NCBI GenBank assembly: GCA_017477435.1
Contig: JAFUVV010000055.1
Coordinates: 1 to 47,364, forward strand
DNA from: Prevotella sp.
GTDB taxonomy: Bacteria > Bacteroidota > Bacteroidia > Bacteroidales > Bacteroidaceae
DNA: 47,364 nucleotides
Direction of reading: 5' to 3'
Shown here: positions 5,722 to 44,956 of the stretch, piece by piece
Numbering within the stretch: the first letter of the stretch is position 1
How the letters are laid out: every line of letters starts with the position of its first letter
Notes under the pieces: generated by a model
The model's input: only the letters and a program-made list of their open reading frames with translations
What the model was told of the DNA's origin: nothing
The model's database searches: none
Position numbers and translations under genes: made by a program

Positions 5722-5853
5722 AACGGACTCTAATGCACAGCTTAACGGGCTCTCATGCACAGCTTAATGGGCCTTTATGTAAAACAAAACGGGCCGTTTT
5801 GTTCAACAAAATGGGTTGTTTTGTTCAACAAAACAAGTCACTTTGTTCTGGCA
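5722..5853. repeat. Array of six 22-bp units (AAyGGGC family)
   Basis: Six contiguous 22-bp units start at 5722, 5744, 5766, 5788, 5810 and 5832. Each begins AAC or AAT, mostly followed by GGG. Units 1 and 2 share the tail ATGCACAGCTT. Around units 4-6 the sequence resolves into 7-nt arms AACAAAA and TTTTGTT (CTTTGTT in unit 6) around 7-nt loops CGGGCCG, TGGGTTG and CAAGTCA, with a single C between units (7+7+7+1 = 22). The left units keep the period and GGG core but have poor arm pairing. It lies between the nth promoter region and the 3' end of the GH127-type gene. There is no coding potential. The architecture parallels the AGTACA/TGTACT arrays elsewhere in the window. Confidence 0.85.
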
Positions 5854-5879
5854 AAGCATACAGTTGCCTGCGACTAAGA

Positions 5880-5977
5880 GGCTTCGAGACGCAGACTATG
5901 AGACTTCGAGACGCAGGCTATAAGGCTTCGAGACGCAGGCTATAAGGCTTCGAGACGCAGACTAAGAGGCTTCGAGA
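5880..5977. repeat. Array of four and a half 22-bp units (GGCTTCGAGACGCAG)
   Basis: Full units start at 5880, 5902, 5924 and 5946, with a partial one at 5968. Each begins with a near-copy of GGCTTCGAGACGCAG, followed by a variable tail (ACTATGA, GCTATAA or ACTAAGA). It follows the preceding array after a 26-bp spacer that already ends with the same tail (GCGACTAAGA). The period is identical, but I see no clear inverted arms in this family. Together with the previous array it fills most of the 480-bp gap between nth and the GH127-type gene. Confidence 0.85.
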
Positions 5978-6030
5978 AGGCGGCACTACGTCTCTCTCGC
6001 GCAAATTATATAATAATGTGTAGAAAAAAC

Positions 6031-6066
6031 GAAGGTGGCCATCCAGGATAGTGGATGGTCACCTTC
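6031..6066 (-). terminator. Rho-independent terminator of the GH127-type gene
   Basis: Arms at 6031-6045 and 6052-6066 (GAAGGTGgCCATCCA and its complement) form a 15-bp stem with one imperfect pair and a 6-nt loop. On the minus strand it is followed by GTTTTTTC. It lies 39 bp beyond the stop codon of the glycosidase gene. Confidence 0.85.
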
Positions 6067-6104
6067 TGATAATATCAATATGAAAAATGTGCGTGCGAGC
6101 GTGA

Positions 6105-9100
6105 TTACCGTCGACTGAACTTGCAACTGGTGAGCGGCTGGCCTGTGCAGGATGTGAGGCTGACGACATAAATGCCCTGGGGCAGCTGCGACATTGTGAA
6201 GGTGTCTTGCTCGGGATAGTACAGTCGGCTGCACTCGGTTCCTGTCTCGTCGTATAGTCGCAATATGCCTCGCTCGCAACCTGAGACGTTGCATTGCACG
6301 CCGCGACTATCTCCCAGGGAATGCACGGTAAGGTGTGCGGTGGGATGATTGGTGCGCGTGTTGACTCCATCGATGGCGGTATCATCGCCGGCGCGCTGCA
6401 GTTCGACATAGTCGATGTCGGTAGTGTTGACTGTGGCGATGGGCGACAGGCTAAGGGTGTTGAACCCTTCCTGTAGGTGGATGGTGACTTGGAGGGTTTC
6501 CCACTGCCCCGAGGTGGCTTGCAGTCTGACGACCTGCGTCTCGCCGTTGACGACAACACGGAATTGGCTGCTACTGGTGGCGCGGTAGCAGAGGGTGAGC
6601 TGATAGTTGCTCTCTGCAGGAATGTAGAGAGTGTTGTACTGCAGATATGTCTTTAGCTTTGCCACGTATGCGCCTCCTGAGCTGGTGCCGTCGAAGGTGC
6701 GGTTGTCGCCATGTGGCTGTGCATCTTCTGCCTCAAGACGAATGAGTGAGAGCCCCCTGTAGCCCCCCAAGGGGGGCAGAAGCTCCACCTGACCTCCCCA
6801 AGGGGAGGAATTTCGTCCTTCGTCATCGTTAGCGTTAGCGTTTTCGTTATCGTTTGCGTCCCCCCAACTGCGTTTCTGCCACAGGACTTCTGGACACATC
6901 TCGTCTATATAGCGCTGCGTGACGAGGGCTATATCGAAATAGCGCATCGGGCGGTCGTTGTGCTTCAGCGTCAGGCGTATGGTACTCTTGCCGTGGGTGA
7001 GCGTGGCAGGTATCTTGTAGAACAATCGTGGGAAGGTGAACTGCTGCATACGCTCGCAGGGCCCACTCTCGCCGATAAGCACGTCGTCGACATAGACGGA
7101 GTAGTTGCCCACCATGTCGGTATGCCATCCGTCGTGCTGCAGCATGACGTAGTGCGGGGCATCGGCGTCGGGCGACAGTTGCATGGTGTAGCTGATGGAC
7201 TGCCCTGCCTCCACTTGCAAGTAGTTGCGGTTGTATATGGTGCCGGTCTGTGAGGTGCCTGAGCCGTCGTGCCCGGCATCGCCCGAGGGTTTTATGCGGT
7301 CGGCGATGTAGTGGCGTAAGTTCTCCACCACGTCGTCGGAAGTGAAGCGCAGGAAGATGGATGTCTTATGATGGCTGGCTTTATAGAATGGCAGGAAATT
7401 GTATCCTCCGCCGCGGAAAACGATTTGCGACTGCTGTCGACGCGTGAGCCATTGGCTTGGATTGGCCATGCTGCCGTCAATATGGGGAAAATCGGATGGT
7501 GCTACCGCTGTTGACTGCTGCCATGGGTTGCTGGTGTACTCGCCTGATGATGCTCCCAGGTTGGGGCTCAGCAGGACGGGGCCATAGAATATGCTTGCCA
7601 CGTCGGGCTCTTCGGTGGGCTCGCTGCGCAGTGCGAGCGGAAGGGTGAGCACCAGCTGGTCGCCATCGCTCCATGGGCCATCGACGCTCAGCAGGCCCTG
7701 ACTGACATTGCCTGCCACTGGGCTGCCGTTACGGGCAACGACGATGTTGCCATCCATCCACTGCGGGACACGGAAGAGGAGCTTGCCGGCGAAACGGCCT
7801 ACGGCATCGAGTGTGAGCGTGACGGTCTGCTCGGTAGGATAGTTGCCCGCCATGGTAAGACGCAGACCATTGTCGGCACACGAGAGTGTGGAAGGGATGA
7901 AGAGATTGACGAGCAGGTCGCTGCCGTTGCTGAAGTAGATGGCTTCGCCGTATTTGGAGTGATTCTCTAATGCTGTCTCCCAGCAGCAATAGAAAGAACT
8001 ATCGTCCATGTACTGCCGATACATGCCTGGCAGCAGCGACTGGAAGTAGCAGAATCCTCCGCCCACGGTATTGTTGTTGGGGTCTTTCGATGCGAGGATG
8101 TGGTTGTACAGCGCGCGTTCGTAGAAGTCCATATAGCGCGTGTCGCCATATAGCGAGAACATTGCCTTAGAGAAGCGCAGCATGTTGTTGGTGCAGCATG
8201 TCTCGGTGGAGGTGTTTGCCAGTTGGTCGAGCATGCGGCCTGGTTGTCCGTATCGCTCCCAGCGTCCATGCCCGCCCATAGGCAGTATGTGCCAGTCGAC
8301 GATATAGTCCCACACGGTGCGTGCGGCAAGTGAGTTGCGCTCATCGCCCGAGAGCTCGTAGCCACGCACCAGGCCCATGAACTTGGGGTCGTAGACATTG
8401 GCGTGTCGCGACGTGAGGGGACTGTCGCCACGGCACAAGCGGTCGCGGAAGTTGAGTGTGTGCGTCCAGCGCTCTCCTGCCTTCAGGAACTTCTCATCGC
8501 CACTGAGGGCATAGGCGTCCATAAACAGCTCGGCCATCCCGCCATGCTCTGTCTCGAGAGCCATCTGCAGACTGGCATCACTGGCAATGCCTGCAGTCCA
8601 CGTGCATGCCCACTCCATGCACTTGAGAAAGACATCGAGGGCTTTGTCGATATGGGCGTACAGATATGCATCGCGGATGCCGTAGTAGATGCGGTGAAGC
8701 TGATAGAACACCATGCCGGCCATATCGGAATTGGTATAGAAATCCTCGCCGTTGTTCACTGGTGTGCATCCATCGCCACGCGCAGCCATCAGACTATTGT
8801 AGAAGCCTTTGGTGCGCGAGAAGTGGAACCATCCGCCGAGGTTCTCCTCGCGCTGACAGCGTTCTATGATATCTATCATCCATGCTACCCTGTCGCGCAA
8901 TGTCTCGTCGCCGGTAGCAGCATACATCATTGAACAGCCCGACATGTAATTGCCGAAGCCATTGCCGTTGTTATGCTGCCAGCCACCGTAATTCTCTGCA
9001 GTGGTTGATATTCCTCCGGCACGCATCACATTGTTGAGAAGCCTCTCAGGGTCGAGCGACAACAGATAGCTATGGTGCATGTCCTGCATCTGCTTGAAGT

Positions 9101-10621: not shown

Positions 10622-12079
10622 ATGGAAAATATGGAACTAAGACCAGCTCGTGTGTTTGAGCAATTTGCAGAGATTAACAAGATTCCCCGCCCATCGAAAC
10701 GCGAGGAGAAGATGATTGCCTTCTTGAAGGCATTTGGAGAGAGCCGCGGACTCGAGACTAAAGTCGACGAGACGGGCAACGTGATTATTCGCAAGGCTGC
10801 CACTCCTGGCTATGAGAACCGCCAAACGGTGATTCTCCAGAGCCACATGGACATGGTGTGCGACAAACTGGTCGACGTGGAGTTCGACTTCGACAACGAT
10901 CCCATTCAGACTTACATCGATGGCGAGTGGCTGCATGCAAAGGGCACTACGCTCGGTGCCGACGACGGTATCGGCTGCGCCATCGAACTGGCAATCCTCG
11001 ACAGCGAAGATATTGAGCACGGCGAGATAGAGTGTGTGTTCACCCGCGACGAAGAGACAGGACTAACGGGTGCCGAGGGTATGAAGGCAGGATTCATGAC
11101 AGGAAGTATGCTCATCAACCTCGACTCCGAGGACGAGGGGCAGATTTTCGTGTCGTGTGCCGGCGGACGGAACACGCTGGCGACGTGGAGCGTAGAGCGT
11201 GAGGATGCACCCGAGGGATATTTCTTCGCAACGTTGGCGCTGAAAGGTCTCAACGGTGGCCACTCCGGCGACGACATCAACAAGAAGCGAGCCAATGCGA
11301 TAAAGATCCTCGCGCGGTTCCTCTATCAGGAGATGCAGAAGACCGACCTCCGTCTGGCAAGCTTCAACTCGGGCAAGCTCCACAATGCCATCCCCCGCGA
11401 CGGACGCGTGGTCGTGGCTTTCCCCGAAGACATGAAGGACAATGTGAGGGCCGACTGGAACGTCTTCACAGCGAAGGTAGAGGACGAGTTCCACGTGACA
11501 GACATGGCAATGGTATTCGACATGGCCACAGCCGACACTGAGAAGGTTGTCGACAAAGCTACTGGCGACTCCATCATCCGCGCTCTTCAGGCTGTCGACA
11601 ACGGCGTGTTTGCGATGTGTCAGGACGAGGAGCTGGCGTGGCTCGTGGAGACGTCGAGCAACGTGGCTGCCGTGACGACATTCCCTGAGCGCGTGGAGGT
11701 GCTCTCGTCGCAGCGCTCAAACGTGATGAGCAACCTCGACAACCAGTGCGCAACGGTGAAGGCTGTCTACGAACTTGCCGGTGCCAAGGTGGTGCAGGGC
11801 GATGGTTATCCGGCATGGAAACCGAAGGCTGACAGCCAGCTGACGAAGATCACCGTAGAGACCTACCGCAAGCTGTTCGGCAAAGACCCGAAGGTGCTCG
11901 GCATACATGCAGGACTGGAGTGCGGATTGTTCTCCGAGCGCTACCCCGACCTCGACATGGTGTCGTTCGGTCCAACGCTACGCAATGTGCACACACCAGA
12001 CGAGTGCCTATATATCCCGACAGTGGAAATGGTGTGGAACCACCTGATGGAGATTCTCAAAAACATTCCGGAGAAATAA
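10622..12079 (+). CDS. pepD: Aminoacyl-histidine dipeptidase (M20 family)
   Basis: A cytosolic zinc dipeptidase that cleaves Xaa-His dipeptides such as carnosine; 485 residues is the normal length for PepD. Metal ligands and catalytic residues are visible: His75-x-Asp77 (QSHMDMVCD), Asp114 (GADDGIG), and Glu144/Glu145 in TRDEETGLTG. The C-terminal half holds the HAGLECG segment with another metal histidine. The first ATG (10622) is chosen; a second in-frame ATG lies three codons on, and no strong ribosome-binding site decides between them. It stands alone, ended by a strong terminator. Confidence 0.96.
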   Translation: MENMELRPARVFEQFAEINKIPRPSKREEKMIAFLKAFGESRGLETKVDETGNVIIRKAATPGYENRQTVILQSHMDMVCDKLVDVEFDFDNDPIQTYIDGEWLHAKGTTLGADDGIGCAIELAILDSEDIEHGEIECVFTRDEETGLTGAEGMKAGFMTGSMLINLDSEDEGQIFVSCAGGRNTLATWSVEREDAPEGYFFATLALKGLNGGHSGDDINKKRANAIKILARFLYQEMQKTDLRLASFNSGKLHNAIPRDGRVVVAFPEDMKDNVRADWNVFTAKVEDEFHVTDMAMVFDMATADTEKVVDKATGDSIIRALQAVDNGVFAMCQDEELAWLVETSSNVAAVTTFPERVEVLSSQRSNVMSNLDNQCATVKAVYELAGAKVVQGDGYPAWKPKADSQLTKITVETYRKLFGKDPKVLGIHAGLECGLFSERYPDLDMVSFGPTLRNVHTPDECLYIPTVEMVWNHLMEILKNIPEK

Positions 12080-12096
12080 CGATATCCACAAACACA

Positions 12097-12137
12097 ACGA
12101 CTTGGGACGGACTTCAATCCGTCCCAAGTCGTTTTTT
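12097..12137 (+). terminator. Rho-independent terminator of pepD
   Basis: A perfect 15-bp stem (12097-12111 with 12118-12132, ACGACTTGGGACGGA) with a 6-nt loop is followed by a T run to 12137. It begins 17 bp after the pepD stop codon. Confidence 0.95.
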
Positions 12138-12187
12138 GCCCCGGCAGAAAAGCTTGCCCGGCACGGCATGACATACAGCTCGGCAGT

Positions 12188-12275
12188 AGTACAAGAACCA
12201 TGTACTGCGAGTACAAAGGCCATGTACTTCGAGTACAAGAACGTTGTACTGGCAGTACACGGGCTTTGTACTCCT
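12188..12275. repeat. Four-unit 22-bp hairpin array (AGTACA/TGTACT family)
   Basis: Units start at 12188, 12210, 12232 and 12254. All have arms AGTACA and TGTACT. The loops are AGAACCA, AAGGCCA, AGAACGT and CGGGCTT, and the spacers are three bases. The last unit carries the loop in the opposite orientation to the others. It lies in the convergent gap between pepD and the DUF6528-type gene, ending 10 bp before the latter's stop. Confidence 0.9.
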
Positions 12276-12285
12276 ACCTACCGGT

Positions 12286-13182
12286 TCAGAAGCAGCGCAC
12301 TTTGTAAAGTTTCATGTCGCCCACACCGATGGTATGGTCGGGGCTGAGGGAGTAGATGTTGTGGGTCCACCAGCTCTCCTCGGCGATGGTGAAGACGGTT
12401 CGTCCCGAGCGGGGATCGTAGTTGAGCGACTTGACGTGCGGCCGGTTCGCAAGCGGAGCGAACGGATGGAACTCGCCGGTGTTCATGTCAAAGACGAACG
12501 GGCCTTCGTGCACGGTAACCGCAAGACTGTCTTTACCTATCGGGGTGAGGTCATGGCCTCCGATGGAAGGCAGTTTCCACACTTGCCTACAGGCAAGCTT
12601 CGGTTTGTCAGTCTTCCAGTCTTTAAGCTCGTAGGCTCTCAGTTCGTCGTATCCGAGGGCATATAAGATCCGCCGCTTGGCATTCCATACGACGCCGTGG
12701 GCCGAGTATAGACTGTCTGCGAACAACGGCTTTTCGGAACAGTCGGCATCGTAGACCTCCAAGCGATTTCCGTCTCTGTGAGTCGACAAGGCTACGACGA
12801 TCCTCCCACCGGGCAACATCTCAACCGAGTGAGCCATCGGCGGGTAGGCATAGAAGAGCACACGGCGGGTCTTAATGTCGATGAGGAGAGTGGCATCGCT
12901 CGACGATGTGGCGAGAATGCGGCGCCCATGGTCTACGGGTTTGCAATCGTCGAACGTCCTGAGCCGATGCCCATACTCTGCCGGCAAGTCGCTGCCGTTC
13001 TCACGGAACGACCACTGCCAGACGACGTTAGGCGTCGGCGTCCATCCCTCCGACTGGTCGAGAATCTGCACGATGTCGTCGCCACAGATCACGATGCGGT
13101 CGCCAAATCGTTTCTTTGCAGCCACGACTGCGGGGAGCAACACGATGAATGTCAAGATGAGTACTTTCCTTGAAAGACACAT
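12286..13182 (-). CDS. Secreted beta-propeller-like protein (DUF6528 type)
   Basis: A protein of 298 residues with a signal peptide (about residues 1-22, ending VVAA). The rest is a run of short strands typical of WD40/YVTN-like propellers: RIVICGDDIVQIL, RILATSSSDATLLID, MAHSVEMLPGGRIVVALS, GVVWNAKRRILYALG, HDLTPIGKDSLAVTV. I associate this with DUF6528, common in gut Bacteroidota, with no known activity. It is probably periplasmic or surface-exposed. The start is at 13182; a tRNA-Pro gene lies upstream on the same strand. Confidence 0.7.
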   Translation of the reverse strand: MCLSRKVLILTFIVLLPAVVAAKKRFGDRIVICGDDIVQILDQSEGWTPTPNVVWQWSFRENGSDLPAEYGHRLRTFDDCKPVDHGRRILATSSSDATLLIDIKTRRVLFYAYPPMAHSVEMLPGGRIVVALSTHRDGNRLEVYDADCSEKPLFADSLYSAHGVVWNAKRRILYALGYDELRAYELKDWKTDKPKLACRQVWKLPSIGGHDLTPIGKDSLAVTVHEGPFVFDMNTGEFHPFAPLANRPHVKSLNYDPRSGRTVFTIAEESWWTHNIYSLSPDHTIGVGDMKLYKVRCF

Positions 13183-13227
13183 AGTTATATTTATTTAGCG
13201 GTTTAATAATATACAGATCACAAAAAA

Positions 13228-13266
13228 GCCCGCTAAAATGCATATTTCTATGTATTATTAGCGGAC
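13228..13266 (-). terminator. Rho-independent terminator of the tRNA-Pro transcript
   Basis: Arms GCCCGCTAA (13228-13236) and TTAGCGGAC (13258-13266) pair (one G-U/mismatch). On the minus strand they are followed by TTTTTTG. It lies just downstream of the tRNA gene and upstream of the DUF6528-type gene. Confidence 0.8.
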
Positions 13267-13289
13267 TTCATACCCTCTTTTACCCCAAG

Positions 13290-13362
13290 TCGAGGTGACA
13301 GGACTCGAACCTGCGACAGCCTGGTCCCAAACCAGGAACGCTACCAACTGCGCTACACCTCG
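13290..13362 (-). tRNA. tRNA-Pro, anticodon UGG
   Basis: On the minus strand it folds as a complete 73-nt cloverleaf. The acceptor stem is CGAGGTG/CACCTCG plus discriminator A, the D stem GCGC/GCGT, and the anticodon stem CCTGG/CCAGG around loop TTTGGGA (anticodon TGG, reading CCA). The T arm is GCAGG-TTCGAGT-CCTGT. CCA is not encoded and must be added after transcription. A canonical promoter lies upstream and a terminator downstream, so it is a single-gene transcript. Confidence 0.97.
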
Positions 13363-13395
13363 TTGCCGAAACTGGCCTTGCCTGTTTTGCGGGTG

Positions 13396-13427
13396 CAAAG
13401 ATAATACCTTTTTCCCGACCCTGCAAA
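13396..13427 (-). promoter_or_regulatory. Promoter of tRNA-Pro
   Basis: Minus strand: TTTG (13424-13427), 20-bp spacer, TATCTTTG (13396-13403). The expected start of transcription falls a few bases before the mature tRNA 5' end at 13362. Confidence 0.8.
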
Positions 13428-13454
13428 TTTTAGGCAATTTATTTTCGGAGAACT

Positions 13455-14642
13455 TTATTTTATTATTCCCTGCTCGACAAAAATCTTCTTCAGCACTTGC
13501 ACGCCGCGCTCCACCTCGTCTTCAGTGTGAGTGGCCATGAGTGCAAAGCGCACCAATGTGTCTTGCGGAGCGCATGCGGGAGGTATTACGGAGTTGATGA
13601 ATACTCCGTTGTCGAATGCCAACTTGGTGACAAGGAATGTCTTGTCGACGTCGCGGACATAAAGAGGGATAATAGGACTTTCGGTATCGCCAATCTCGAA
13701 TCCTTCTTCACGGAAACGCTTGAGTGCGTAGTTCGTTACCGACCACAGCTTCTCTATGCGCTCCGGCTCCTGCTGTATGATGTGCAGGGCTTCCATTGCA
13801 GCGGCTGTTGCGGCCGGAGTATTGGAGGCGCTGAAGATATAGGTGCGGCAGGTATGGCGAAGATAGTTAATAGTATCGAAGTCTCCGGCAATGAATCCGC
13901 CGATCGATGCGAGGCTCTTGGAGAACGTGCCCATGATGAGATCCACCTCATCGGTGAGTCCGAAGTGGTCGCAGACGCCGCGGCCTTGCTTGCCGAACAC
14001 TCCCAGCCCGTGGGCCTCGTCGACCATCACCGAGCAGTTGTACTTGTGCTTGAGCTCGATGATCTCGGGCAGTTTTGCCAGATCGCCTTCCATCGAGAAC
14101 ACTCCGTCGACAACGATGAGCTTCACGGCCTCGTAGGGTAGCTTCTGAAGCACACGCTCGAGGTCTTCCATGTCGTTGTGCTTGTAGCGGAGCTGTGTGG
14201 CAAACGAAAGACGACGACCGTCGACTATGCTGGCATGGTCACGATCGTCGCAGATAATATAGTCGTTGCGTCCAACAACCATAGCAAGGACTCCCTGGTT
14301 GACAGAGAATCCTGTGGAAAGGCATAGCGCTGCATCTTTGTGCTCAAACTCTGCGAGCTCTTTCTCGAGTTGAACATGGATGTCGAGCGTTCCATTGAGG
14401 AATCGGCTTCCTGCACATCCCGACCCATACTTGTCGAGGGCAGCCTTGGCTGCATCTATCACGCGCTGGTCGCCAGTCAGTCCTGTGTAGGCATTCGAAC
14501 CGAACATAAGAACCTTATGTCCTTCCATTTCAACTTCTGTTCCTTGCTTACTCGTTATTTCCCTGAAATATGGATAGACACCGAGAGCCATAAACTTCTG
14601 AGGCTCACGATATGACTTATAACGTTCTTGTAATTGTCCCAT
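13455..14642 (-). CDS. spt: Serine palmitoyltransferase (alpha-oxoamine synthase family)
   Basis: A PLP enzyme condensing L-serine with a fatty acyl-CoA to 3-ketosphinganine, the first step of sphingolipid synthesis, which Bacteroidales and relatives carry out. It has 395 residues from Met at 14642; the longer frame upstream would read through the promoter. Visible features: Schiff-base Lys242 in GTFSKSLAS, the DEAHGLG motif (Asp208, His211), the stacking histidine in DRDHASI (His136), and the substrate-site SGCAGSRFLNG. Glycine acyltransferase (KBL) and BioF belong to the same fold, but the N-terminal YKSYREPQKFMALGVYPYFR resembles Bacteroidales Spt. The lipid-kinase gene that follows divergently fits membrane-lipid work. 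Confidence 0.88.
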   Translation of the reverse strand: MGQLQERYKSYREPQKFMALGVYPYFREITSKQGTEVEMEGHKVLMFGSNAYTGLTGDQRVIDAAKAALDKYGSGCAGSRFLNGTLDIHVQLEKELAEFEHKDAALCLSTGFSVNQGVLAMVVGRNDYIICDDRDHASIVDGRRLSFATQLRYKHNDMEDLERVLQKLPYEAVKLIVVDGVFSMEGDLAKLPEIIELKHKYNCSVMVDEAHGLGVFGKQGRGVCDHFGLTDEVDLIMGTFSKSLASIGGFIAGDFDTINYLRHTCRTYIFSASNTPAATAAAMEALHIIQQEPERIEKLWSVTNYALKRFREEGFEIGDTESPIIPLYVRDVDKTFLVTKLAFDNGVFINSVIPPACAPQDTLVRFALMATHTEDEVERGVQVLKKIFVEQGIIK

Positions 14643-14684
14643 TTTAAAAATAGATACTACTATACTTTTTATAGGTTCAGTTTG

Positions 14685-14692
14685 CAAAGTTA
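14685..14692 (-). promoter_or_regulatory. -7 box for spt
   Basis: The minus strand reads TAACTTTG followed by CAAACTG, 43 bp upstream of the chosen start. No well-spaced -33 TTTG is seen. Confidence 0.65.
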
Positions 14693-14784
14693 CAAAAAAA
14701 CACAAATAATCGAATCTTTTTTCAAGAAAATTATGCTTTTTCTTCAATTTATTCTTCAAAAGGCGGTCGTTAGGTCTTTTTTTG

Positions 14785-14792
14785 TACTTTTG
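14785..14792 (+). promoter_or_regulatory. -7 box for the lipid kinase gene, very close to the start codon
   Basis: TACTTTTG matches TAnnTTTG. The start codon at 14799 is only 7 bp downstream, so the transcript would have almost no leader if this box is used. Confidence 0.65.
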
Positions 14793-14798
14793 CGCCCG

Positions 14799-15824
14799 AT
14801 GATGAGAGCTGTATTCATAGTAAACCCGATATCAGGAACGACAAAGAAGAAGAATATTCCTGAAGTTATCGCTTCAACCGTCGACCGTAGCATCTTCGAC
14901 TATGAGATTGCCTACACTGCCTACGCCGGTCACGCCACCGTATTGTCTGCCAAGGCTTGCAGCGAGGGTGCCGACGTGGTTGTGGCAGTGGGTGGCGACG
15001 GTACTGTGAACGAGGTGGGGCGGGCTCTCATCAACTCGGGCACGGCGATGGGAATAATCCCCTGTGGCTCCGGCAACGGGCTTGCACGCCACCTGTTGCT
15101 CCCCATCGACGTGAAACGCTCCATTGAAATCATCAACAAGTTTGAGGTTCACGACCTCGACTACGGCATCATAAACGGGCATCCTTTCTTCTGCACCTGC
15201 GGCATGGGGTTTGATGCTTTCGTGAGCAAGAAGTTTGCAGAGGCTGGGAAACGCGGTCTTGCCACATATGTGGAGACGGTGCTCCGCGAGGGACTGAGCT
15301 ACAAGCCTGAGACCTACAAGATTATCGACGAGAACGGCGTGGCGCGTCACAAGGCGTTTCTCATCTCGTGTGCCAACGCGTCGCAATATGGCAACAATGC
15401 CTACATAGCCCCCCAGGCTTCGATGAGCGACGGAATGCTCGACGTGGTGATAATGGAACCGTTCGACATGATAGAGGCTTCGCAGATTAGCATCGAAATG
15501 ATGAGTAAGACGCTCGACAAGAATTCCAAGATAAAGTCGTTCCGCTGCCGCCGGCTCCACATTGAGCGCGAGCGGGAGGGGGTGATTCACTACGACGGCG
15601 ACCCTGTGGAGAGCGGAAAGGAGGTCGACATCGAACTGCAGCCGAAGGGAATAAAGATCGTCGTCAACCCCAACGCCGACAAGAGCCAGCGGCGACCGAA
15701 TGCGATGCAGAATGCTGCTGCCGACTTGTTCAACGAGGTGACTCTCGTTAGGGAGGACATAACGAAGCAGACGCGCCACATACAGGCCTTGGGAAGAATT
15801 TTACAGAGAAAGCTGAAATGGTAG
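14799..15824 (+). CDS. Diacylglycerol kinase-like (YegS/BmrU) lipid kinase
   Basis: A protein of 341 residues of the DAGK catalytic family, soluble or peripheral, which phosphorylates diacylglycerol, sphingoid bases or related lipids. The ATP-binding GGDGTVNE lies at 65-72, GSGNG at 90-94, and the IIPCGSGNGLARHL block is typical. The C-terminal domain ends with an unusual tail of about 35 residues past the last family strand (NPNADKSQRR...). The start is one of two adjacent ATGs at 14799/14802; the longer frame beginning 14634 crosses both promoters. Its divergent pairing with spt suggests the substrate could be a sphingoid lipid, which is inference only. Confidence 0.88.
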   Translation: MMRAVFIVNPISGTTKKKNIPEVIASTVDRSIFDYEIAYTAYAGHATVLSAKACSEGADVVVAVGGDGTVNEVGRALINSGTAMGIIPCGSGNGLARHLLLPIDVKRSIEIINKFEVHDLDYGIINGHPFFCTCGMGFDAFVSKKFAEAGKRGLATYVETVLREGLSYKPETYKIIDENGVARHKAFLISCANASQYGNNAYIAPQASMSDGMLDVVIMEPFDMIEASQISIEMMSKTLDKNSKIKSFRCRRLHIEREREGVIHYDGDPVESGKEVDIELQPKGIKIVVNPNADKSQRRPNAMQNAAADLFNEVTLVREDITKQTRHIQALGRILQRKLKW

Positions 15825-15860
15825 GAACCGCCGAATGTGTTCCTGCCATTTTTATTTTTT
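15820..15860 (+). terminator. Terminator of the lipid kinase gene
   Basis: GGTAGGAAC (15820-15828) pairs with GTTCCTGCC (15839-15847) and is followed by a T-rich run to 15860. The stem includes the stop codon. Confidence 0.8.
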
Positions 15861-15920
15861 GCCAGAAAGAAATCATATCCGTGCTTCAGCCTTTATCCTC
15901 CATCGGCGGCACCGCCTTTC

Positions 15921-16538
15921 TTATCTTATGAAATGCATGCCTTGCCACGGCTCCGTGGCTGGTGCATCGCCTTCGCCGGTCTGGATCTTGCGAAGCATCC
16001 ACGCCATATTCCTCGCCAGCTGGCGCATGGTCTGCATGCCTTCGGCGTCGAGTGCGGCCTCGCCTTTCTCGCGACCGTAGACAATGTTCCAATATTGCGA
16101 CGTCACGAGCGGCATGTTGACCATCTGGAAAGGCAGTTGCAGTGTCTGGAATGCGGCCGTTGCCCCACCCCGACGGCACACGGCGACGGCAGCAGCTGGC
16201 TTGTTGGCCACGACAGCGCCGGCATAGAGTGCGCGCTGGAGGAGGCTCAACGTCTGCCCAGGAGGCACTCCATAATAGACCGGTGCGCCCACCACGAGAG
16301 CGTCGCACGCGTTGATGCGGTCGATGACGGAGTTGCAAATATCGTCGTCGAAAACGCAATGACCGTCGCCACGGGCCTTGCATGTATTGCAGGCTATACA
16401 GCCTCTGACGGGCTTCGTACCTATCCATACGATCTCCGCCTCAATGCCGAGGCTCTCGAGTGTCTTACCTATCTCGCTGAGCGCAACGTGTGTGTTGCCC
16501 TGCTTGCGCGGCGAGCCGTTAATCAACAAAACTTTCAT
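15921..16538 (-). CDS. Flavodoxin-fold NAD(P)H-dependent FMN reductase-like protein
   Basis: A cytosolic protein of 205 residues of the multimeric flavodoxin/iron-sulfur flavoprotein family. The FMN phosphate loop is INGSPRKQGNT (6-16). Cysteines CIACNTC (47-53) plus a further Cys near 61 resemble the motif of iron-sulfur flavoproteins or cysteine-containing FMN reductases, and APVYYGVPPG is the isoalloxazine-binding loop. Such enzymes reduce quinones, iron or other acceptors; the actual substrate cannot be told. It follows trmN6 by 27 bp on the same strand. Confidence 0.85.
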   Translation of the reverse strand: MKVLLINGSPRKQGNTHVALSEIGKTLESLGIEAEIVWIGTKPVRGCIACNTCKARGDGHCVFDDDICNSVIDRINACDALVVGAPVYYGVPPGQTLSLLQRALYAGAVVANKPAAAVAVCRRGGATAAFQTLQLPFQMVNMPLVTSQYWNIVYGREKGEAALDAEGMQTMRQLARNMAWMLRKIQTGEGDAPATEPWQGMHFIR

Positions 16539-16565
16539 ATTACCTATTTATTTATATAATACTCA

Positions 16566-17276
16566 TCATTTCTCATCGAGATAGAAGTCGCGCGTCAGTT
16601 CCGAAAGCCACTGGCTGCGTTTCCTTTCGGATGTCATCATCGTGACATCTTGCTGCTCAACGCTCTCCACCGGAGCTTTACCGAAGGCCACGAGCACTCG
16701 TTTCGGTGCTTTTCCTTCGACGGTACTCACGCGGCAGAGCCTCACTTCATAGAGTCCTGCGAAGACAGCCTCTGCCCTGGCGTCGGCGAGTCGGTCGAAG
16801 GGGAGCACAATACTCATTTCGCCCTCCGCCGTCAGCAGCCGGGCGGCACAGCGGAACAGGTCGCTCAGCGGCAGCGACGAGTCGTGTCGGGCCAGCGAAC
16901 GCTGCCTGTCGGGAGAGCCAAGGGAACGGACGAAGAAGGGTGGATTGCAGACTATGGAGTCGAACTTGCAACAATACTCATTGCCAAACGATTGCAGAGA
17001 TTCGTTAAATATTTTTACTCGCTCTGCAAAAGGCGATTCGCAAGCGTTCTGCCGCGCCTGTTCGGAGGCATCGCGATCGATATCGATGCCTGTCACCTCG
17101 GCCATCGGAAATCGCTGCGCCATCATCAGGGCGACTACACCCGTGCCGCATCCGATGTCGAGCACACGCTGCCCTCCCCTCGCCCATGCTCCGAGAAGGA
17201 CGCCGTCGGTGCCGACCTTCATAGCCGTACGATCCTGACGGACGGTGAACTGCCTAAAACTGAAACTGTCGCCCAT
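16566..17276 (-). CDS. trmN6: tRNA1(Val) (adenine(37)-N6)-methyltransferase
   Basis: An SAM-dependent methyltransferase of the TrmN6 (YfiC) family that methylates A37 of tRNA-Val. The N-terminus (FSFRQFTVRQDRTAMKVGTD) is typical. SAM-binding motif I is VLDIGCGTG and the catalytic NPPF motif is CNPPFF. I start at Met 17276 (MGDSFSFRQF, 236 residues) rather than the longer frame beginning 17306, since homology begins there. It is the first gene of a pair with the flavodoxin-fold protein. Confidence 0.9.
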   Translation of the reverse strand: MGDSFSFRQFTVRQDRTAMKVGTDGVLLGAWARGGQRVLDIGCGTGVVALMMAQRFPMAEVTGIDIDRDASEQARQNACESPFAERVKIFNESLQSFGNEYCCKFDSIVCNPPFFVRSLGSPDRQRSLARHDSSLPLSDLFRCAARLLTAEGEMSIVLPFDRLADARAEAVFAGLYEVRLCRVSTVEGKAPKRVLVAFGKAPVESVEQQDVTMMTSERKRSQWLSELTRDFYLDEK

Positions 17277-17399
17277 GCTGCAAACAGACGCCAACGCGAA
17301 TGGCATCCCGCTATGTTATAACGCGTTGCACCAGCCGTTTATTTTGTCTGACAAAGCCAAAAAACGGAAAAAACACAGTTGAGGAAACCGTACGGACCC

Positions 17400-17487
17400 A
17401 GTACAAAGCCTATGTACGGATAGTACAAAAGCCATGTACTCCGAGTACAAAGCCCATGTACTGGGAGTACAAAGGCCATGTACTGCA
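17400..17487. repeat. Four-unit 22-bp hairpin array (AGTACA/TGTACT family)
   Basis: Units start at 17400, 17422, 17444 and 17466. The arms are AGTACA and TGTACT (TGTACG in the first). The loops are AAGCCTA, AAAGCCA, AAGCCCA and AAGGCCA, all in one orientation. It lies in the divergent gap between trmN6 and lon; the rest of the gap down to 17565 shows nothing recognisable. Confidence 0.9.
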
Positions 17488-17565
17488 GCCGAGAGAACGC
17501 ACTTACGACGAAATGTAGTGCTGCCGGATGCAGCAAAAGAGCACATTTCCTCTATAAATAATCTT

Positions 17566-17714
17566 AATTTATTTTGTTCTCCGCTCGGTTTTTTTCGCTT
17601 CGCTCAACAACTCGTCGCTAACTTTGATTCCTTCGGAATTCGAAGTTAAGATGCACCTCGGAATAAAAAATAAATAGATTTATTTTGTTCTCCGCTCGGT
17701 TTTCGCTAACTTTG
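17566..17714 (+). repeat. Duplicated promoter module upstream of lon
   Basis: A segment with TTTATTTTGTTCTCCGCTCG occurs at about 17568-17587 and again at 17679-17698. Each copy leads to CGCTAACTTTG (-7 boxes at 17619-17626 and 17707-17714). The upstream copy has an extra CGCTTCGCTCAACAACTCGT between the elements, and a TTCCTTCGGAATTCGAAG palindrome separates the copies. The module at 10330-10481 (other strand) has the same parts in the same order. Confidence 0.8.
17684..17714 (+). promoter_or_regulatory. Promoter of lon
   Basis: TTTG (17684-17687), 19-bp spacer, TAACTTTG (17707-17714), 64 bp before the lon start codon. It matches the consensus exactly. Confidence 0.85.
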
Positions 17715-17778
17715 CAACCTAATTCGTCCGCACGCACGTGGGTGCATGCGAACATAGATAATATTAAGGCAAAAAGAA

Positions 17779-22610: not shown

Positions 22611-22660
22611 AGCCCCACATAATCTCCCCAAGAAGAAAGCCCCTATTGCTTTCCCTTCCT

Positions 22661-22712
22661 CGTCATCGTCCCTTCGTCATCGTCCCTTCGTCATCGTCCT
22701 TTCGTCATCGTT
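22661..22712. repeat. 14-bp tandem repeat CGTCATCGTCCCTT
   Basis: Three full units (22661, 22675, 22689) and a partial fourth lie in the 116-bp gap ahead of the helicase gene. Related CGTCATCGTT strings occur inside the glycosidase gene near 6820. No promoter is visible here. Confidence 0.8.
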
Positions 22713-22726
22713 ATAAACTATGAGCT

Positions 22727-23986: not shown

Positions 23987-24002
23987 CACCGCCGCCGGCA
24001 GC

Positions 24003-24090
24003 AGTACATGGGCCAAGTACCAGCAGTACAAGACCTATGTACTCGCAGTACAAAGCCCGTGTACTCGCAGTACAAAAGCCATGTACTACA
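24003..24090. repeat. Four-unit 22-bp hairpin array (AGTACA/TGTACT family)
   Basis: Units start at 24003, 24025, 24047 and 24069. The loops of units 2-4 are AGACCTA, AAGCCCG and AAAGCCA; unit 1 has the inverted loop TGGGCCA and imperfect right arm AGTACC. It lies in the convergent gap between the helicase and the PurF-like gene, starting 17 bp after the helicase stop. Confidence 0.9.
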
Positions 24091-24135
24091 GTCGAAGACA
24101 AATATATACCAGACTAAGGAATAGAAGAAAAAAGG

Positions 24136-24177: not shown

Positions 24178-24199
24178 TGTCGTTGCAGCGCTATGATCG

Positions 24200-27940: not shown

Positions 27941-27986
27941 TTCGATATTATCCTTTCTATGTATTATTCAACTAAATGAAAAATCT

Positions 27987-28018
27987 TTTGCAAAAGTAGT
28001 CATTTTTCATTACTTTTG
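27987..28018 (+). promoter_or_regulatory. Promoter of the radical SAM gene
   Basis: TTTG (27987-27990), 20-bp spacer, TACTTTTG (28011-28018). The start codon at 28026 is 7 bp downstream of the -7 box, so the mRNA is probably nearly leaderless. Confidence 0.8.
27991..27998 (-). promoter_or_regulatory. -7 box of the dipeptidyl peptidase IV gene
   Basis: The minus strand reads TACTTTTG, 50 bp before the start codon at 27940. It overlaps the spacer of the divergent promoter, and CTTTTGCAAAAG (27985-27996) forms a palindrome across the -33 of one promoter and the -7 of the other. Confidence 0.7.
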
Positions 28019-28025
28019 CAAGCAA

Positions 28026-28934: not shown

Positions 28935-29152
28935 GAGGTATTCATAAATAAATTGGAGTTAAGGAGTTATGGAGTTAAGGTGTTAAGACAATACCTTTGC
29001 TTTAACAGTTTCAGATGACTGAAAGAGAAAACGACTAATGTCTTAATCCATGACTCTTTAACTCCACCACTCCACATGCGCCGGAGCCCTTGCGAGGCTT
29101 CGGGAAACAAGCGAAAAGAAAGTTTCTGCTTGATTGTGAAAGCACCGTGCGT

Positions 29153-29953: not shown

Positions 29954-29981
29954 GATGAGCCGTAATTAACAAATTCGGCTA

Positions 29982-29989
29982 CAAAAGTA
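29982..29989 (-). promoter_or_regulatory. -7 box of the GldB-like gene
   Basis: Minus strand TACTTTTG, 29 bp upstream of the start codon; no clear -33 found. Confidence 0.65.
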
Positions 29990-30121
29990 CTAAAAAATAT
30001 TTCACAATGCAAATTTTCGGTGAAAAAAGTTTAAAAAACAGGTAGAAAATTTGCTTTTAACTTTATTTTAATTAAAAATCGACAGGTCTACTTGCCGATG
30101 CCTCTCGCATGTGTCGGCTGC

Positions 30122-30209
30122 AGTACATGGGCTTTGTACTCACAGTACATGGGCTTTGTACTCGCAGTACACGGGCTTTGTACTCGCAGTACATGGGCTT
30201 TGTACTGTC
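30122..30209. repeat. Four-unit 22-bp hairpin array (AGTACA/TGTACT family), nearly perfect
   Basis: Units start at 30122, 30144, 30166 and 30188. Loops are TGGGCTT (three units) and CGGGCTT; spacers are CAC, CGC, CGC and GTC. It is the most homogeneous array. It ends 10 bp before the stop codon of the GT2 gene, so in that gene's transcript the hairpins would form the start of the 3' untranslated region. No other terminator is visible there. Confidence 0.92.
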
Positions 30210-30219
30210 GCCGCTACGC

Positions 30220-34476: not shown

Positions 34477-34510
34477 ACAGGGAGAGAACGCTTACAACGT
34501 CTCTCCCTGT
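34477..34510. other. Perfect 11-bp inverted repeat after the GH43-like gene
   Basis: ACAGGGAGAGA (34477-34487) pairs with 34500-34510 across 12 nt. It could stabilise or end the GH43 mRNA, but no T run follows. Confidence 0.6.
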
Positions 34511-34620
34511 CCATCGGCCTTTCCTGAAAACTCAAAACTAAAAACTGAAAACCTTCCTTACAATTTCTCTCCCTGTCCATCGGCCTTTCCTGAAAACTTA
34601 AAACTAAAAACTGAAAACCT
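34491..34620. repeat. Direct repeat of 64 bp, two near-identical copies
   Basis: 34491-34554 and 34557-34620 are near-identical. Both contain CTCTCCCTGTCCATCGGCC and AAACTAAAAACTGAAAACC, and the last 54 bp differ at one base. The period is 66 bp. It forms part of the 680-bp gap 34448-35129, which contains no gene. Confidence 0.88.
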
Positions 34621-34810: not shown

Positions 34811-34892
34811 TAGATGGGCCCTTTAATGTCATCAAAGGGCCCAAGTAACAGTCTTAAAGGGCCCATCTAATGCCATTAAAGAGCCCACTTAC
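34811..34892. repeat. 22-bp-period GGGCCC array
   Basis: GGGCCC (once GAGCCC) occurs at 34816, 34837, 34859 and 34881, spaced 21, 22 and 22 bp. The first two units are inverted relative to each other, so GGGCCCTTT and AAAGGGCCC make a 9-bp stem around AATGTCATC. The last two units share TTAAAGrGCCCA and TAATGCC or TTACCAG tails. It has the same period and GGGC core as the other arrays but weaker arm pairing. Nothing else was recognised in the gap up to the promoter at 35079. Confidence 0.7.
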
Positions 34893-41929: not shown

Positions 41930-43198
41930 ATGAAAATATTATTGTTAGGCAGTGGTGGTCGAGAGCACGCACTGGCATGGAAGATATCAAAGAGTGAGAA
42001 ATGCGAGAAGTTGTTCATTGCCCCTGGTAATGCCGGAACATCTGATGTTGGCGAGAACGTGGCAATCGGTGTGAACGACTTCGAGAGAATCAAGGTTTTT
42101 GCCATCGACAATGCCATCGACATGATTGTTGTGGGCCCTGAAGATCCGCTCGTGAACGGCATCTACGACTGCATTAAGTCGGATCCTGCCACAGCCCACA
42201 TCGCTGTCATCGGCCCCACAAAAGCCGGCGCACAGCTTGAAGGTTCGAAGGATTTTGCAAAGGCGTTCATGCAGAGGCACCGCATCCCCACGGCTCGCTA
42301 TCAGACATTCGACGGCGAACATCTGCAGGAGGGGCTGCAGTTCCTCGAGACGCTAAATCCTCCTTACGTTCTGAAGGCCGACGGATTGTGTGCAGGAAAG
42401 GGTGTGCTTATCCTTCCTACGCTCGACGAGGCAAAGAAGGAACTGGGCGAGATGCTTGGCGGAATGTTTGGAGGTGCCTCGGCAAAGGTGGTTATCGAGG
42501 AGTACCTGAGTGGCATAGAGTGCTCAGTGTTTGTCCTCACCGACGGGAAGAACTATAAAATCCTGCCCGAGGCAAAAGACTACAAGCGCATCGGTGAGCA
42601 TGACACCGGACTGAATACCGGCGGAATGGGAAGCGTATCGCCCGTACCCTTCGCCGACAGCGAATGGATGAAGAAGGTGGAGGACCGCATCATACGACCC
42701 ACAGTGGAAGGCCTGGCAGAAGAAGGCATACTCTACAAGGGCTTCATATTCTTCGGACTGATAAACGTCGGTGGCAACCCGATGGTGATTGAATACAACT
42801 GTCGCATGGGTGATCCTGAGACAGAGAGCGTGATGCTCCGACTGAAGAGCGACATCGTCGACCTGTTTGAAGGTGTTGCAGAGGAGGATATCGACAAGCG
42901 ACAGGCAGAGTTCGACGAGCGTGCTGCAGTATGCGTGATGCTCGTAAGCGGCGGATATCCACAGGCTTACAAGAAGGGATACCCCATATCGATTCCTGCT
43001 GTCGATGGCGACACCATCCTTTTCCACAGCGGTACAAAGGCCGTTGACGGACAGACGCTCACTAATGGCGGACGAGTCATCGCTGTCTCGTCATACGGAA
43101 AAGACAAGGAAGAAGCCCTACAAAAGAGTTTCAACATTGCCAAGCAGATTGAGTTCACCGATAAATACTTCCGCAGCGACATCGGCAGCGACTTATAA
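41930..43198 (+). CDS. purD: Phosphoribosylamine-glycine ligase
   Basis: The second step of purine synthesis, joining phosphoribosylamine and glycine with ATP; it uses the product of PurF. 422 residues is the normal length. The N-terminal [17 protein letters not shown] loop, [11 protein letters not shown], the ATP-grasp region with [22 protein letters not shown] and [15 protein letters not shown] are all diagnostic. It lies 34 bp after the S9 peptidase gene, across short GGTTAAA repeats. Confidence 0.98.
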
Positions 43199-43210
43199 AA
43201 TGTAAAGTGT

Positions 43211-43275
43211 GAGCACAAAGGGCTTTCGTTCTTCGTTCTTTCGTTGAGCACAAAGGGCTTTCGTTCTTTCGTTTT
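43211..43275. repeat. Imperfect tandem repeat (GAGCACAAAGGGCTTTCGTT)
   Basis: GAGCACAAAGGGCTTTCGTT occurs at 43211 and again at 43245 (period 34), followed by CTTTCGTT repeats. The AAAG-GG-CTTT core is palindromic. It lies between purD and the membrane-protein gene, where the latter's start codon would be expected. Confidence 0.7.
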
Positions 43276-43379
43276 ATCGTTCTTATCAATTTCCAACTAT
43301 CAAAAAGAGAATACAAAACATAATCGCTGAGAGTCGCTACTCACTTCCGCTTGCCATCATCGCGACGGCAAGCGTATGG

Positions 43380-44300
43380 GTGGTTGTCCACTCTCTTTTC
43401 AACGCCAACTCCCTTCCCTTGGAGAAGTCAGGTGGGGTATCCCCTTTCCCCGGGAAAGGTACAGAGGCAACCTTCCCATATGAGTGGCTGGGGATGGGAT
43501 TTGTCCTTGCCACTGCATTTGTGATGGTGAGGCTCAACACCATCCACGCAATCATGCGCACCTATAGCCGAATGATATCGTGCTCGTTTCTTGCAATCAG
43601 CCTCATCGCCCTGCCCTACTTTCTCAATCCGCTGAACGCAGCACTACCCCTCTGCCTCAGCATCATCTTCACGCTCCTTTTCTTTTCCTATCAAGACAAG
43701 ACAGCCGTGGGAATCGTCTTCCTCACCTTCGTCGTGCTCAGCATCGCGAGCCTTATATATATAAAGATTCTCCTACTTGTTCCCATTCTCTGGATCATCA
43801 TCGCCACCCGCATGATGGCCATGAGTCCGCGCGTGTTCTTCGCCTCGCTTCTTGGCATCGTCACGCCCTATTGGTTCTACGCAGCTTATTGTCTTTACGC
43901 AGATCGCATCGACACTCTGACCGACCACGTAACAGACATAGCCGACTTCACCAACATTTCAGACATCAGTACACTGAGTCTCAGTGATATAGCCATTTTT
44001 GTTATAGTAATACTTCTATTCTTTTTGGGGATGACACATTTCATCCTCACGAGCCACAACGACAAGATTCGTACCCGTATGATCTTCGAGTCGTTCATCA
44101 TTACCGACATTGCCCTTCTCGCCTTCATCATCCTCCAGCCAGCAGAGATGGAGTGCCTTGTGCCGATGATGGCCGTCGGCGTGAGCCCACTTGTAGCTCA
44201 CTACGTCACCTACACCTCGTCGCGGCTCTCCAACCTGTCGTTCCTCGGCATGATTATTATCCTTATCCTCACCACTGCCTATCACTTATGGACGCTCTGA
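43380..44300 (+). CDS. Integral membrane protein of unknown function (start uncertain)
   Basis: At least 306 residues with about eight or nine hydrophobic helices and no motif that I recognise. GTG at 43380 is the first usable start, but the frame is open back to 43248. The codons before it (IKKRIQNIIAESRYS, then LPLAIIATASVW) read like a natural N-terminus and first membrane helix without any ATG, GTG or TTG. The true start may have been lost or may be an unusual codon such as ATC. Residues 9-27 (FNANSLPLEKSGGVSPFPGKG) are encoded by a palindromic repeat element (43417-43465). It overlaps the YqaA gene by 13 bp. Confidence 0.7.
   Translation: MVVHSLFNANSLPLEKSGGVSPFPGKGTEATFPYEWLGMGFVLATAFVMVRLNTIHAIMRTYSRMISCSFLAISLIALPYFLNPLNAALPLCLSIIFTLLFFSYQDKTAVGIVFLTFVVLSIASLIYIKILLLVPILWIIIATRMMAMSPRVFFASLLGIVTPYWFYAAYCLYADRIDTLTDHVTDIADFTNISDISTLSLSDIAIFVIVILLFFLGMTHFILTSHNDKIRTRMIFESFIITDIALLAFIILQPAEMECLVPMMAVGVSPLVAHYVTYTSSRLSNLSFLGMIIILILTTAYHLWTL
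43417..43465 (+). repeat. Palindromic GC-rich element inside a coding frame
   Basis: TCCCTTGGAGAAGTCAGGTGG followed by GGTATCCCCTTTCCCCGGGAAAGG parallels, base by base in many places, the minus strand of 6747-6812, but lies in a different reading frame of its host gene. It encodes SLPLEKSGGVSPFPGKG. Confidence 0.65.
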
Positions 44301-44740
44301 TTCAGTTGCTCATCGACTACGGCTACTGGGGCATGCTCCTTGCAGCATTTCTCGCCGGCAGCTTTTTCCCTTTCAGCAGTGAAGCCGTCATGGTAGCTCT
44401 TCTCGCCGCAGGACTGCAGCCCTGGCCACTCGTGGCCTACGGCACCGTGGGCAACGTGCTCGGGTCGGTGTTCAACTATGGCGTCGGTCGCCTCGGCCGC
44501 ACCGAATGGATAGAGCGCTACCTCCACGTCACACCTACGCAGATGGACCGTGCCCGGCGATTCATGCGTGGCAGGGGAGCATGGATGGGGTTCTTCGCGT
44601 TCCTGCCGGTACTGGGCAGCGCCATCACCATCGTCCTCGGGCTCATGAGGGCAAACCTCTTTATTACGTTCATAAGCATCACCATCGGAAAGCTCCTGCG
44701 CTACGTCATCCTCGTCTACGGCACCGGACTGCTCTTCTAA
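44288..44740 (+). CDS. YqaA/DedA-family membrane protein
   Basis: An inner-membrane protein of 150 residues of the SNARE-associated/DedA superfamily (YqaA branch). The glycine-rich first helix pair (GYWGMLLAAFLAGSFFPFSSE), the GNVLGSVFNYGVGRLGR motif, and FLPVLGSAITIVLGLMR (re-entrant loop with Pro) are characteristic. DedA proteins act as lipid or undecaprenyl phosphate flippases; for the YqaA branch this is inferred. I start at Met 44288, since the longer frame begins deep inside the preceding gene. Confidence 0.9.
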   Translation: MDALIQLLIDYGYWGMLLAAFLAGSFFPFSSEAVMVALLAAGLQPWPLVAYGTVGNVLGSVFNYGVGRLGRTEWIERYLHVTPTQMDRARRFMRGRGAWMGFFAFLPVLGSAITIVLGLMRANLFITFISITIGKLLRYVILVYGTGLLF

Positions 44741-44824
44741 TTCCACATTTTCATCTATCGTCTCTCTACATTCCGAGCCTGCCATACGGGCTGGGCCCTC
44801 CAGTCTATATATCAGTCTGGCGCG

Positions 44825-44956
44825 AGTACATGGGCCTTGTACTGCGAGTACATGGGCTTTGTACTACAAGTACATGGGCCTTGTACTGCGAGTACATGGG
44901 CTTTGTACTACAAGTACATGGGCTTTGTACTGCGAGTACAAAAGCCATGTACTGCT
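44825..44956. repeat. Six-unit 22-bp hairpin array (AGTACA/TGTACT family)
   Basis: Units start at 44825, 44847, 44869, 44891, 44913 and 44935. The loops are TGGGCCT/TGGGCTT in units 1-5 and the inverted AAAGCCA in the last; spacers alternate GCG and ACA. It lies in the 340-bp gap after the YqaA gene. Beyond it, GCGTTTG (about 44973) and CAAACGC (about 44992) form a small inverted repeat; the rest is leader of the next gene. Confidence 0.92.

Follow-up and report, generated by a model that had tools for sequence, protein, structure and literature searches.

The 47,364-nt stretch of Prevotella sp. DNA analyzed in this study (contig JAFUVV010000055.1; hereafter the window) carries several intergenic arrays of short palindromic units repeated at a 22-bp period, and the question that it raises is what these arrays are. 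The 22-bp-period arrays reported in a first-pass annotation of the window are real. Our best explanation, to which we assign a probability of approximately 0.38, is that they are phased protein-docking sites on the chromosome with an architectural role. Each array would consist of dyad-symmetric sites in duplex DNA, usually four, placed at 22 bp, or two helical turns; dimers of a sequence-specific protein would bind side by side on the same face of the helix and form a nucleoprotein complex of ~85-130 bp.

The window lies in contig C14 of a 2.32-Mb assembly that is 78% complete (G000; hereafter the own genome), from which stretches totaling 938,859 bp (939 kb) on 22 contigs, the window included, were sampled. 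The exact pattern AGTACANGGGNNNTGTACT matched 251 times in the own genome, and 343 exact adjacent pairs of units with AGTACA arms were found; the reversed-reading control patterns gave 0 matches in both searches. The 73 seeds in the sample comprised 69 multi-unit AGTACA-N7-TGTACT arrays and 4 single units. This density of ~73 arrays per Mb, scaled by length, would give ~170 AGTACA arrays in the own genome. Four units were present in 66 of the 69 arrays, five in one, and six in one; the last was scored as two units and seems to run on past a 1-bp insertion (an automatic unit counter returned four for 63 of the 69). No two of the 66 four-unit cassettes were near-identical, the most alike pair sharing 79 of 85 bases and the median being 67. 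The outer flanks follow a symmetric 8-bp consensus, YYGGCNGC/GCNGCCRR, and the units, which are asymmetric in their loops, often all point one way (FFFF in 24 and RRRR in 9 of 68 arrays). One decayed-looking AGTACA array (contig C2, 18601-18766) has units more divergent than elsewhere and is possibly losing constraint.

Comparison of the 66 four-unit arrays revealed pairwise differences of 0-0.12 in the 12 arm columns, 0.33-0.62 in the loops, and 0.55-0.71 in the spacers. Because the arms are near-constant while the spacers drift and no cassettes are near-identical, recent copying alone is insufficient to account for the constancy of the arms, since copying followed by drift would have altered arms as much as spacers; selection or continuing homogenization thus seems to maintain them. 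The arrays could also be ordinary minisatellites that have no function and are homogenized by slippage and gene conversion. In line with this explanation, the similarity of loops and spacers was higher within an array than across arrays (z 1.4 to 4.9), and the units of one orthologous array had changed alike between sister species. However, slippage varies the copy number, yet 66 of 69 arrays have four units; homogenization within an array cannot hold the arms constant over 69 loci while the spacers drift; and the dyad symmetry is left unexplained. We regard the minisatellite explanation as improbable.

The first-pass annotation had offered two alternatives, a chain of RNA hairpins or DNA sites two helical turns apart, and of these the DNA alternative fares better. 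The pitch of 22 was kept where the units are built as 6+7+6+3 and 7+7+7+1 in the own genome and as 17+5 in Prevotella koreensis and Prevotella falsenii; thus, arms of 6 or 7 nt and spacers of 1, 3, or 5 nt are combined with a constant pitch. Since a chain of RNA hairpins would not need such constancy, duplex DNA is favored. If the arrays were RNA hairpin chains, they would act as 3' UTR stabilizers, terminators, or small RNAs. Single-strand folding was indeed stronger than in shuffled sequences (z -3.4 to -8.3 for the 10 strands of five AGTACA arrays), but strong folding is expected of any inverted repeat, and the predicted folds were mostly long inter-unit hairpins, with no excess of such pairing in loops or spacers. 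A terminator scan of window positions 11500-31000 returned 36 sites versus 17.7 in shuffles, one of which (17490-17474, minus strand) lies in an array. On the other side, a 17-pair stem stands ~55 bp before the array at 12188, divergent intergenic spacers are not avoided (20 arrays versus ~15 expected), and the Rfam matches at gathering score in the window amounted to one tRNA. These chains are, in our judgment, a very unlikely explanation, and the RNA alternative mostly fails.

It also lacks covariation in the main family, where compensation was confined to one unit and one pair. Compensatory evolution of the arms, as proposed in the first-pass annotation, was not borne out there: among 277 units (119 distinct), the six AGTACA arm pairs contained 0, 0, 0, 1, 0, and 0 compensatory changes. 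Pair 4/16 was slightly above shuffles (269 paired versus 267.2 +- 0.5), and the loop pairs 7/13 and 8/12 were clearly below them. A modest signal was obtained in a second family with AGTATC arms (61 distinct units), in which pair 2/18 covaried (40 paired versus 29.3 expected, z 2.9) and the excess at pair 4/16 (z 5.3) was carried by one unit; comparison with shuffles thus supports covariation modestly in AGTATC and almost not at all in the AGTACA arms. In a set from the sister species (G040) that was loosely gathered and includes chance matches, pair 2/20 reached z 3.0 and pair 5/17 z 2.4. Pairing between units was below expectation, about equally in control combinations, because units within one array resemble each other when read in the same direction; a long inter-unit hairpin was rejected, the excess of pairing being absent. 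An outer stem closing the array was also rejected: the flank consensus is complementary, yet left and right flanks showed no covariation (z -2.3 to 1.6 at 25 positions).

The class is not limited to AGTACA arms. With that family masked, a lag scan of the non-coding DNA gave lag 22 at 33 places and lag 44 at 32, followed by lag 21 at 11, because further arm families exist. The second family has AGTATC/GATACT arms, loops such as AAGCCCA, and mostly five units; smaller families have AACAWAA (8 rows) and CATTAAA (4 rows) arms. A GGGC or GCCC loop core recurs in these families and in P. koreensis and is absent in P. falsenii. At C20 14587-14764, approximately eight units of the TTAAGGGCCACTTATG type are present, double the usual four. 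Palindromicity was tested by comparing arrays with column permutations, a lenient null, at p<=0.05. Lag-22 arrays were palindromic in 87 of 104 cases in the own genome and in 22 of 24 from the sister species; 79 other Prevotellaceae loci contributed 45 arrays, 30 of them palindromic. These proportions lie clearly apart from the controls (14 of 53 at nine other lags and 3 of 30 at lag 21). The arms of different families therefore differ yet remain complementary in most lag-22 arrays, as the first-pass annotation had stated. Lag 21 was rejected as a second period on the same 3 of 30, and many of its places were visibly 7-base repeats. GTCAACT seven-base repeats at L229 831-1039 and similar places are the source of a large share of the signal at lags 21 and 14 in one genome (G009).

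Arrays of 22-bp pitch also occur in other Prevotella species. Judged by its Lon protein, the source of the window belongs to the rumen Prevotellaceae. In the nearest relative found, the sister species RUG12886 (G040, locus L065; 95% Lon identity), 24 arrays were counted in 359 kb, and the dominant arms resemble TTAAAGAGCCTCTTTAA; the corresponding family is minor in the own genome. P. falsenii has CAAAACC/GGTTTTG arms, with four four-unit arrays within 22 kb, and P. koreensis has CAA...TTG units, such as CAAATTGGGCGAAATTG, and 9 lag-22 places in 200 kb. A scan of 1.44 Mb from 80 Prevotellaceae Lon loci, covering coding as well as non-coding DNA, ranked lag 22 first (42) and lag 21 next (29). 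By the automatic counter, the modal unit count was four in the sister species, with 14 of 23 arrays, in P. koreensis, with 6 of 14, and across 78 other Lon loci, with 22 of 46 (the four P. falsenii arrays included). Six other families of Bacteroidales, sampled in twelve stretches (238 kb), yielded one lag-22 place. A phage origin was rejected, 0 IMG/VR contigs having two exact tandem units.

In 38 syntenic intervals compared between the sister species, arrays were present in both genomes in 4, in G040 only in 2, in the own genome only in 11, and in neither in 21; the arm families differ in three of the four intervals that share an array. At C16:13403, an older array whose units have changed alike is common to both sisters, and the adjoining AGTACA array is present only in the own genome. 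No usable clean empty sites were found in the sister species, whose intergenic DNA is mostly unalignable. A near-identical block (L214 ~5950-6740 versus contig C12 ~41930-42700) spans an AGTACA array and a gene start; the two species are otherwise ~79-91% alike there, so that this array, shared with the sister species, reflects recent interspecies transfer.

The placement of the arrays, assessed with a simple in-house open reading frame caller, bears on their role. No overlap with a called gene was seen for any of the 69 sampled AGTACA arrays. The flanking genes of 68 arrays were oriented -- in 21 cases, -+ in 20, ++ in 14, and +- in 13; in proportion to intergenic bases, ~27, 15, 17, and 9 would be expected, so that no strong preference is evident. 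Start codons were avoided more than stop codons: the distance to a start had a minimum of 30, a 10th percentile of 83, and a median of 202 bp (n=76), and that to a stop had a 10th percentile of 13 and a median of 108 bp (n=61). Array orientation was not correlated with gene strand (Spearman p 0.42) or GC skew (p 0.73), and a KOPS-like strand polarity was rejected (Fisher p 0.30 against GC skew). The closest AGTACA neighbors in the sample are 2,921 bp apart. Gaps below 2.9 kb, a threshold chosen after the data were seen, numbered 0 of 47 versus 8.5 expected when arrays are limited to one per intergenic spacer (0 of 5000 simulations), and gaps below 2 kb numbered 0 versus 5.1 expected (0 of 500 simulations). 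The coefficient of variation of the gaps was not significantly low under a stricter null (p 0.08), which indicates avoidance of close neighbors and not even spacing. The AGTATC table has 18 rows, of which one, with 4 units, is an AGTACA array and was left out; of the remaining 17 arrays, none had an AGTACA neighbor at less than 1 kb (~4 expected). AACAWAA arrays do cluster, with 3 pairs closer than 1 kb. Taken together, the density, the intergenic position, the distance from starts, the indifference to orientation, and the spacing of at least 2.9 kb suggest that the role of the arrays would be in chromosome architecture and not in the control of individual genes.

Several of these observations also agree with the main rival explanation, in which a REP- or MITE-like (repetitive extragenic palindrome; miniature inverted-repeat transposable element) mobile cassette of ~101 bp, consisting of the array and its YYGGCNGC ends, is copied into intergenic DNA as a selfish element by an unnamed enzyme and is tolerated only at harmless sites. 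Two exact tandem AGTACA units occurred in 11 of 398 genomes of the genus, the own included, and the 343 pairs found here versus 1-8 in 10 of the 397 others, and none in the rest, point to a species-specific burst. The symmetric outer motif resembles the ends of mobile elements, the AGTACA arrays are intergenic only, and at C16 one stands beside the older shared array in the own genome alone. Furthermore, the own genome has four Y1_Tnp (PF01797) matches; one lies ~43 bp from an AGTATC array and another ~683 bp from an AGTACA array, and the remaining two, of which one is truncated by a contig end, have no array nearby. Nevertheless, of 14 genomes with arrays, 9 lack a Y1_Tnp match, P. falsenii included (their completeness was not stated for this count), and two low-complexity hits aside, only 1 of 36 Y1 loci of other genomes (L170) had a lag-22 array; these 36 include at least one genome twice and many loci from other families or with weak matches. 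No clear target-site duplication was found: when 16 x 16 boundary pairs were scanned for words of 2-12 bases, the best signals were 13 two-base duplications versus 4.3 and 6 three-base ones versus 1.3, which are weak because so many tests were made. The cassettes are never near-identical while their arms are constant, and plain insertion would not avoid close neighbors. We consider this mobile cassette possible, though on balance unlikely.

A REP system driven by a RAYT (REP-associated tyrosine transposase) was rejected: two Y1 genes lie near arrays, but most carriers have no Y1 match, and linkage elsewhere was seen at 1 of the 36 Y1 loci. Two own Y1 genes (L145 790-1310 and L146 1200-1470) are flanked by other, possibly cognate, hairpin repeats, namely CCTCGAAGAGGG, CCGCGGGT, and a direct repeat of ~178-bp period with CCCCGANGGGGTGACA. 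The hairpins beside own Y1 genes are rare, six strings having 0-4 matches each in the 939-kb sample.

Within the window (Table 1), all five AGTACA/TGTACT arrays claimed in the first-pass annotation were located where it placed them, and the claimed GGGCCC array was present, with its start shifted from 34811 to 34816. It is kin to the family dominant in the sister species. The AACAAAA/TTTTGTT array claimed at 5784-5853 was likewise present, with units at 5783-5803 and 5805-5825 and an imperfect third. They belong to a compound array that also contains TTAACGGGCTCTNATGCA-like arms and a GACTATGAGGCTTCGAGACGCA type that is not clearly palindromic. An RRG[CT] core falls on one 22-bp phase in 9 of its 14 slots, versus at most two slots at other phases, and this phase spans the three arm types. 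A 66-bp direct repeat (3 x 22) with AAAACTNAAAACT runs lies in the intergenic DNA at 34491-34620, preceding the 34816 array. Outside the 22-bp class, the window has 14-bp tandem repeats (TCGTCATCGTCCCT) at 22660-22711 and TTTCGTTCTATCGT-rich 35-bp tandem repeats at 43210-43281.

Table 1. Arrays of 22-bp pitch in the 47,364-nt window.
Feature	Position	Strand	Remark
Compound array	5721..5977	.	cores at 22-bp intervals, 5725 to 5967; slot 5857 degenerate
AGTACA-N7-TGTACT array, 4 units of 22 bp	12188..12272	.	-
AGTACA array, 4 units	17400..17484	.	upstream of lon (17779-20253 +)
AGTACA array, 4 units	24003..24087	.	first unit imperfect
AGTACA array, 4 units	30122..30206	.	exact arms in all
CATTA/GGGCCC-type array	34816..34886	.	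GGGCCC or GAGCCC cores, steps 21, 22, 22
AGTACA array, 6 units	44825..44953	.	longest among 69 AGTACA arrays sampled

A number of results weigh against the docking-site explanation. By eye, neighboring families share one 22-bp register in the window, in C17 exactly, and in C16 within 1 bp, but not in C4; automatically placed dyad axes of four neighboring pairs (C14, C16, C17, and C20) gave offsets of 7, -10, 4, and 9 mod 22, and those of the two halves of 5721-5977 were not in a common register. Because these offsets are scattered, a common register was not established and this support fell away, although some second families in the test look poorly palindromic, so that their dyad axes are uncertain. 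We accordingly lowered our confidence in docking sites and in the bolder landmark proposal given below, and raised it slightly for the mobile cassette, whose end-like outer motif counts here as well. The AGTATC rows (18) depart from the typical number, 8 having 5 units, 6 having 4, 2 having 6, and 2 having 2. Array density differs strongly among genomes, and several members of the genus have few: three of them (G003, G016, and G010; 280 kb together) contained 1, 1, and 2 lag-22 places, and eight stretches from six more genomes of the genus (160 kb) gave lag 22 at 4, lag 21 at 6, and lag 14 at 7 places. Positional conservation between the sisters was not significant (4 of 6 versus 11 of 32 intervals, p 0.15). 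To serve several arm families, a genome would need several proteins, and no binding protein was identified, the sole candidate tested being the Lrp/AsnC octamer. Lrp/AsnC was rejected as the reader: one protein per genome was compared in eight genomes, and its helix, VSRAA[IV]HQRV, is near-identical in seven (the eighth is a different paralogue) while the arrays differ.

Even so, the reader of docking sites would most likely be a dimeric DNA-binding protein. The arm sequence may be replaced at the scale of species, one family rising as another fades, while the pitch and the typical number stay. A bolder proposal, which we think rather doubtful, is that the arrays are phased nucleoprotein landmarks of Prevotella, mostly of four dyad sites at 22-bp pitch and separated by kilobases, with a geometry kept across the genus and a sequence rewritten in each species together with a candidate reader protein; if true, they would parallel, in bacteria, the rapidly changing architectural sites of eukaryotes, for example centromere or hotspot motifs. 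If the arrays are bound by protein, Prevotella, which is abundant in the rumen, gut, and mouth, would have chromosome-wide sites that retain their geometry while their sequence is swapped between close species. The joint change of protein and site specificity could then be studied over well over 100 sites, and a new nucleoid protein might be involved. If they are mobile, they would represent a class of palindromic cassette without the usual Y1 transposase. In either case, the arrays are easily found, and the strains that carry them include cultured ones of P. koreensis and P. falsenii.

On the basis of their sequences, the arrays may be regarded as a variant of extragenic palindromic repeats, the function of which we can only infer. 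They are not described among the matches listed in our search of mostly open-access literature or in the available portions of PMC5771137, PMC4596501, PMC3733652, and PMC4349605. The first-pass annotation had found no fit to CRISPR or REP layouts, and each indeed fails on features that we tested. CRISPR arrays have repeats of 24-48 bp and unique spacers of similar length, whereas the arms, loops, and spacers here are 6, 7, and 3 bp and recur between loci. Minisatellites and other variable-number tandem repeats differ in that the copy number here is near-constant between loci (66 of 69 with four). Lrp/AsnC octamers consist of four dimers that wrap DNA over several phased dyad sites, a likeness in number and in the placing of dyad sites on one helical face.

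The REP/BIME (bacterial interspersed mosaic element)/REPIN elements with their RAYTs are similar in being short extragenic palindromes, numerous in a genome and species-specific. REP elements likewise have stems that are more constant than their loops. They differ in their conserved GTAG/CGTC foot tag, which was not seen in the AGTACA family with its YYGGCNGC/GCNGCCRR flanks and variable spacers, and the arrays here have a fixed 22-bp pitch, a typical count of four, and no preference for gene ends. The lack of a Y1_Tnp match in 9 of 14 carriers is a further difference, the own genome having 4; according to the accessible part of PMC3733652, CGTC REPs too are apparently without a dedicated transposase. 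The closest tandem counterpart in Bacteroidales is the BrickBuilt MITE of Porphyromonas gingivalis, also an intergenic array with a unit of similar length. As described in the available portion of PMC4596501, it occupies 19 loci in one strain and has a 23-nt unit, in strain-variable number, within a larger element with a leader and a tail; the same portion mentions 22-nt tandem repeats reported earlier in P. gingivalis W83, without locations. In contrast to the BrickBuilt unit length, lag 22 dominates over lag 23 (108 versus 3 places). As to the leader and tail with terminal inverted repeats, the ends of our arrays carry the symmetric 8-bp outer motif, with no longer leader or tail seen.

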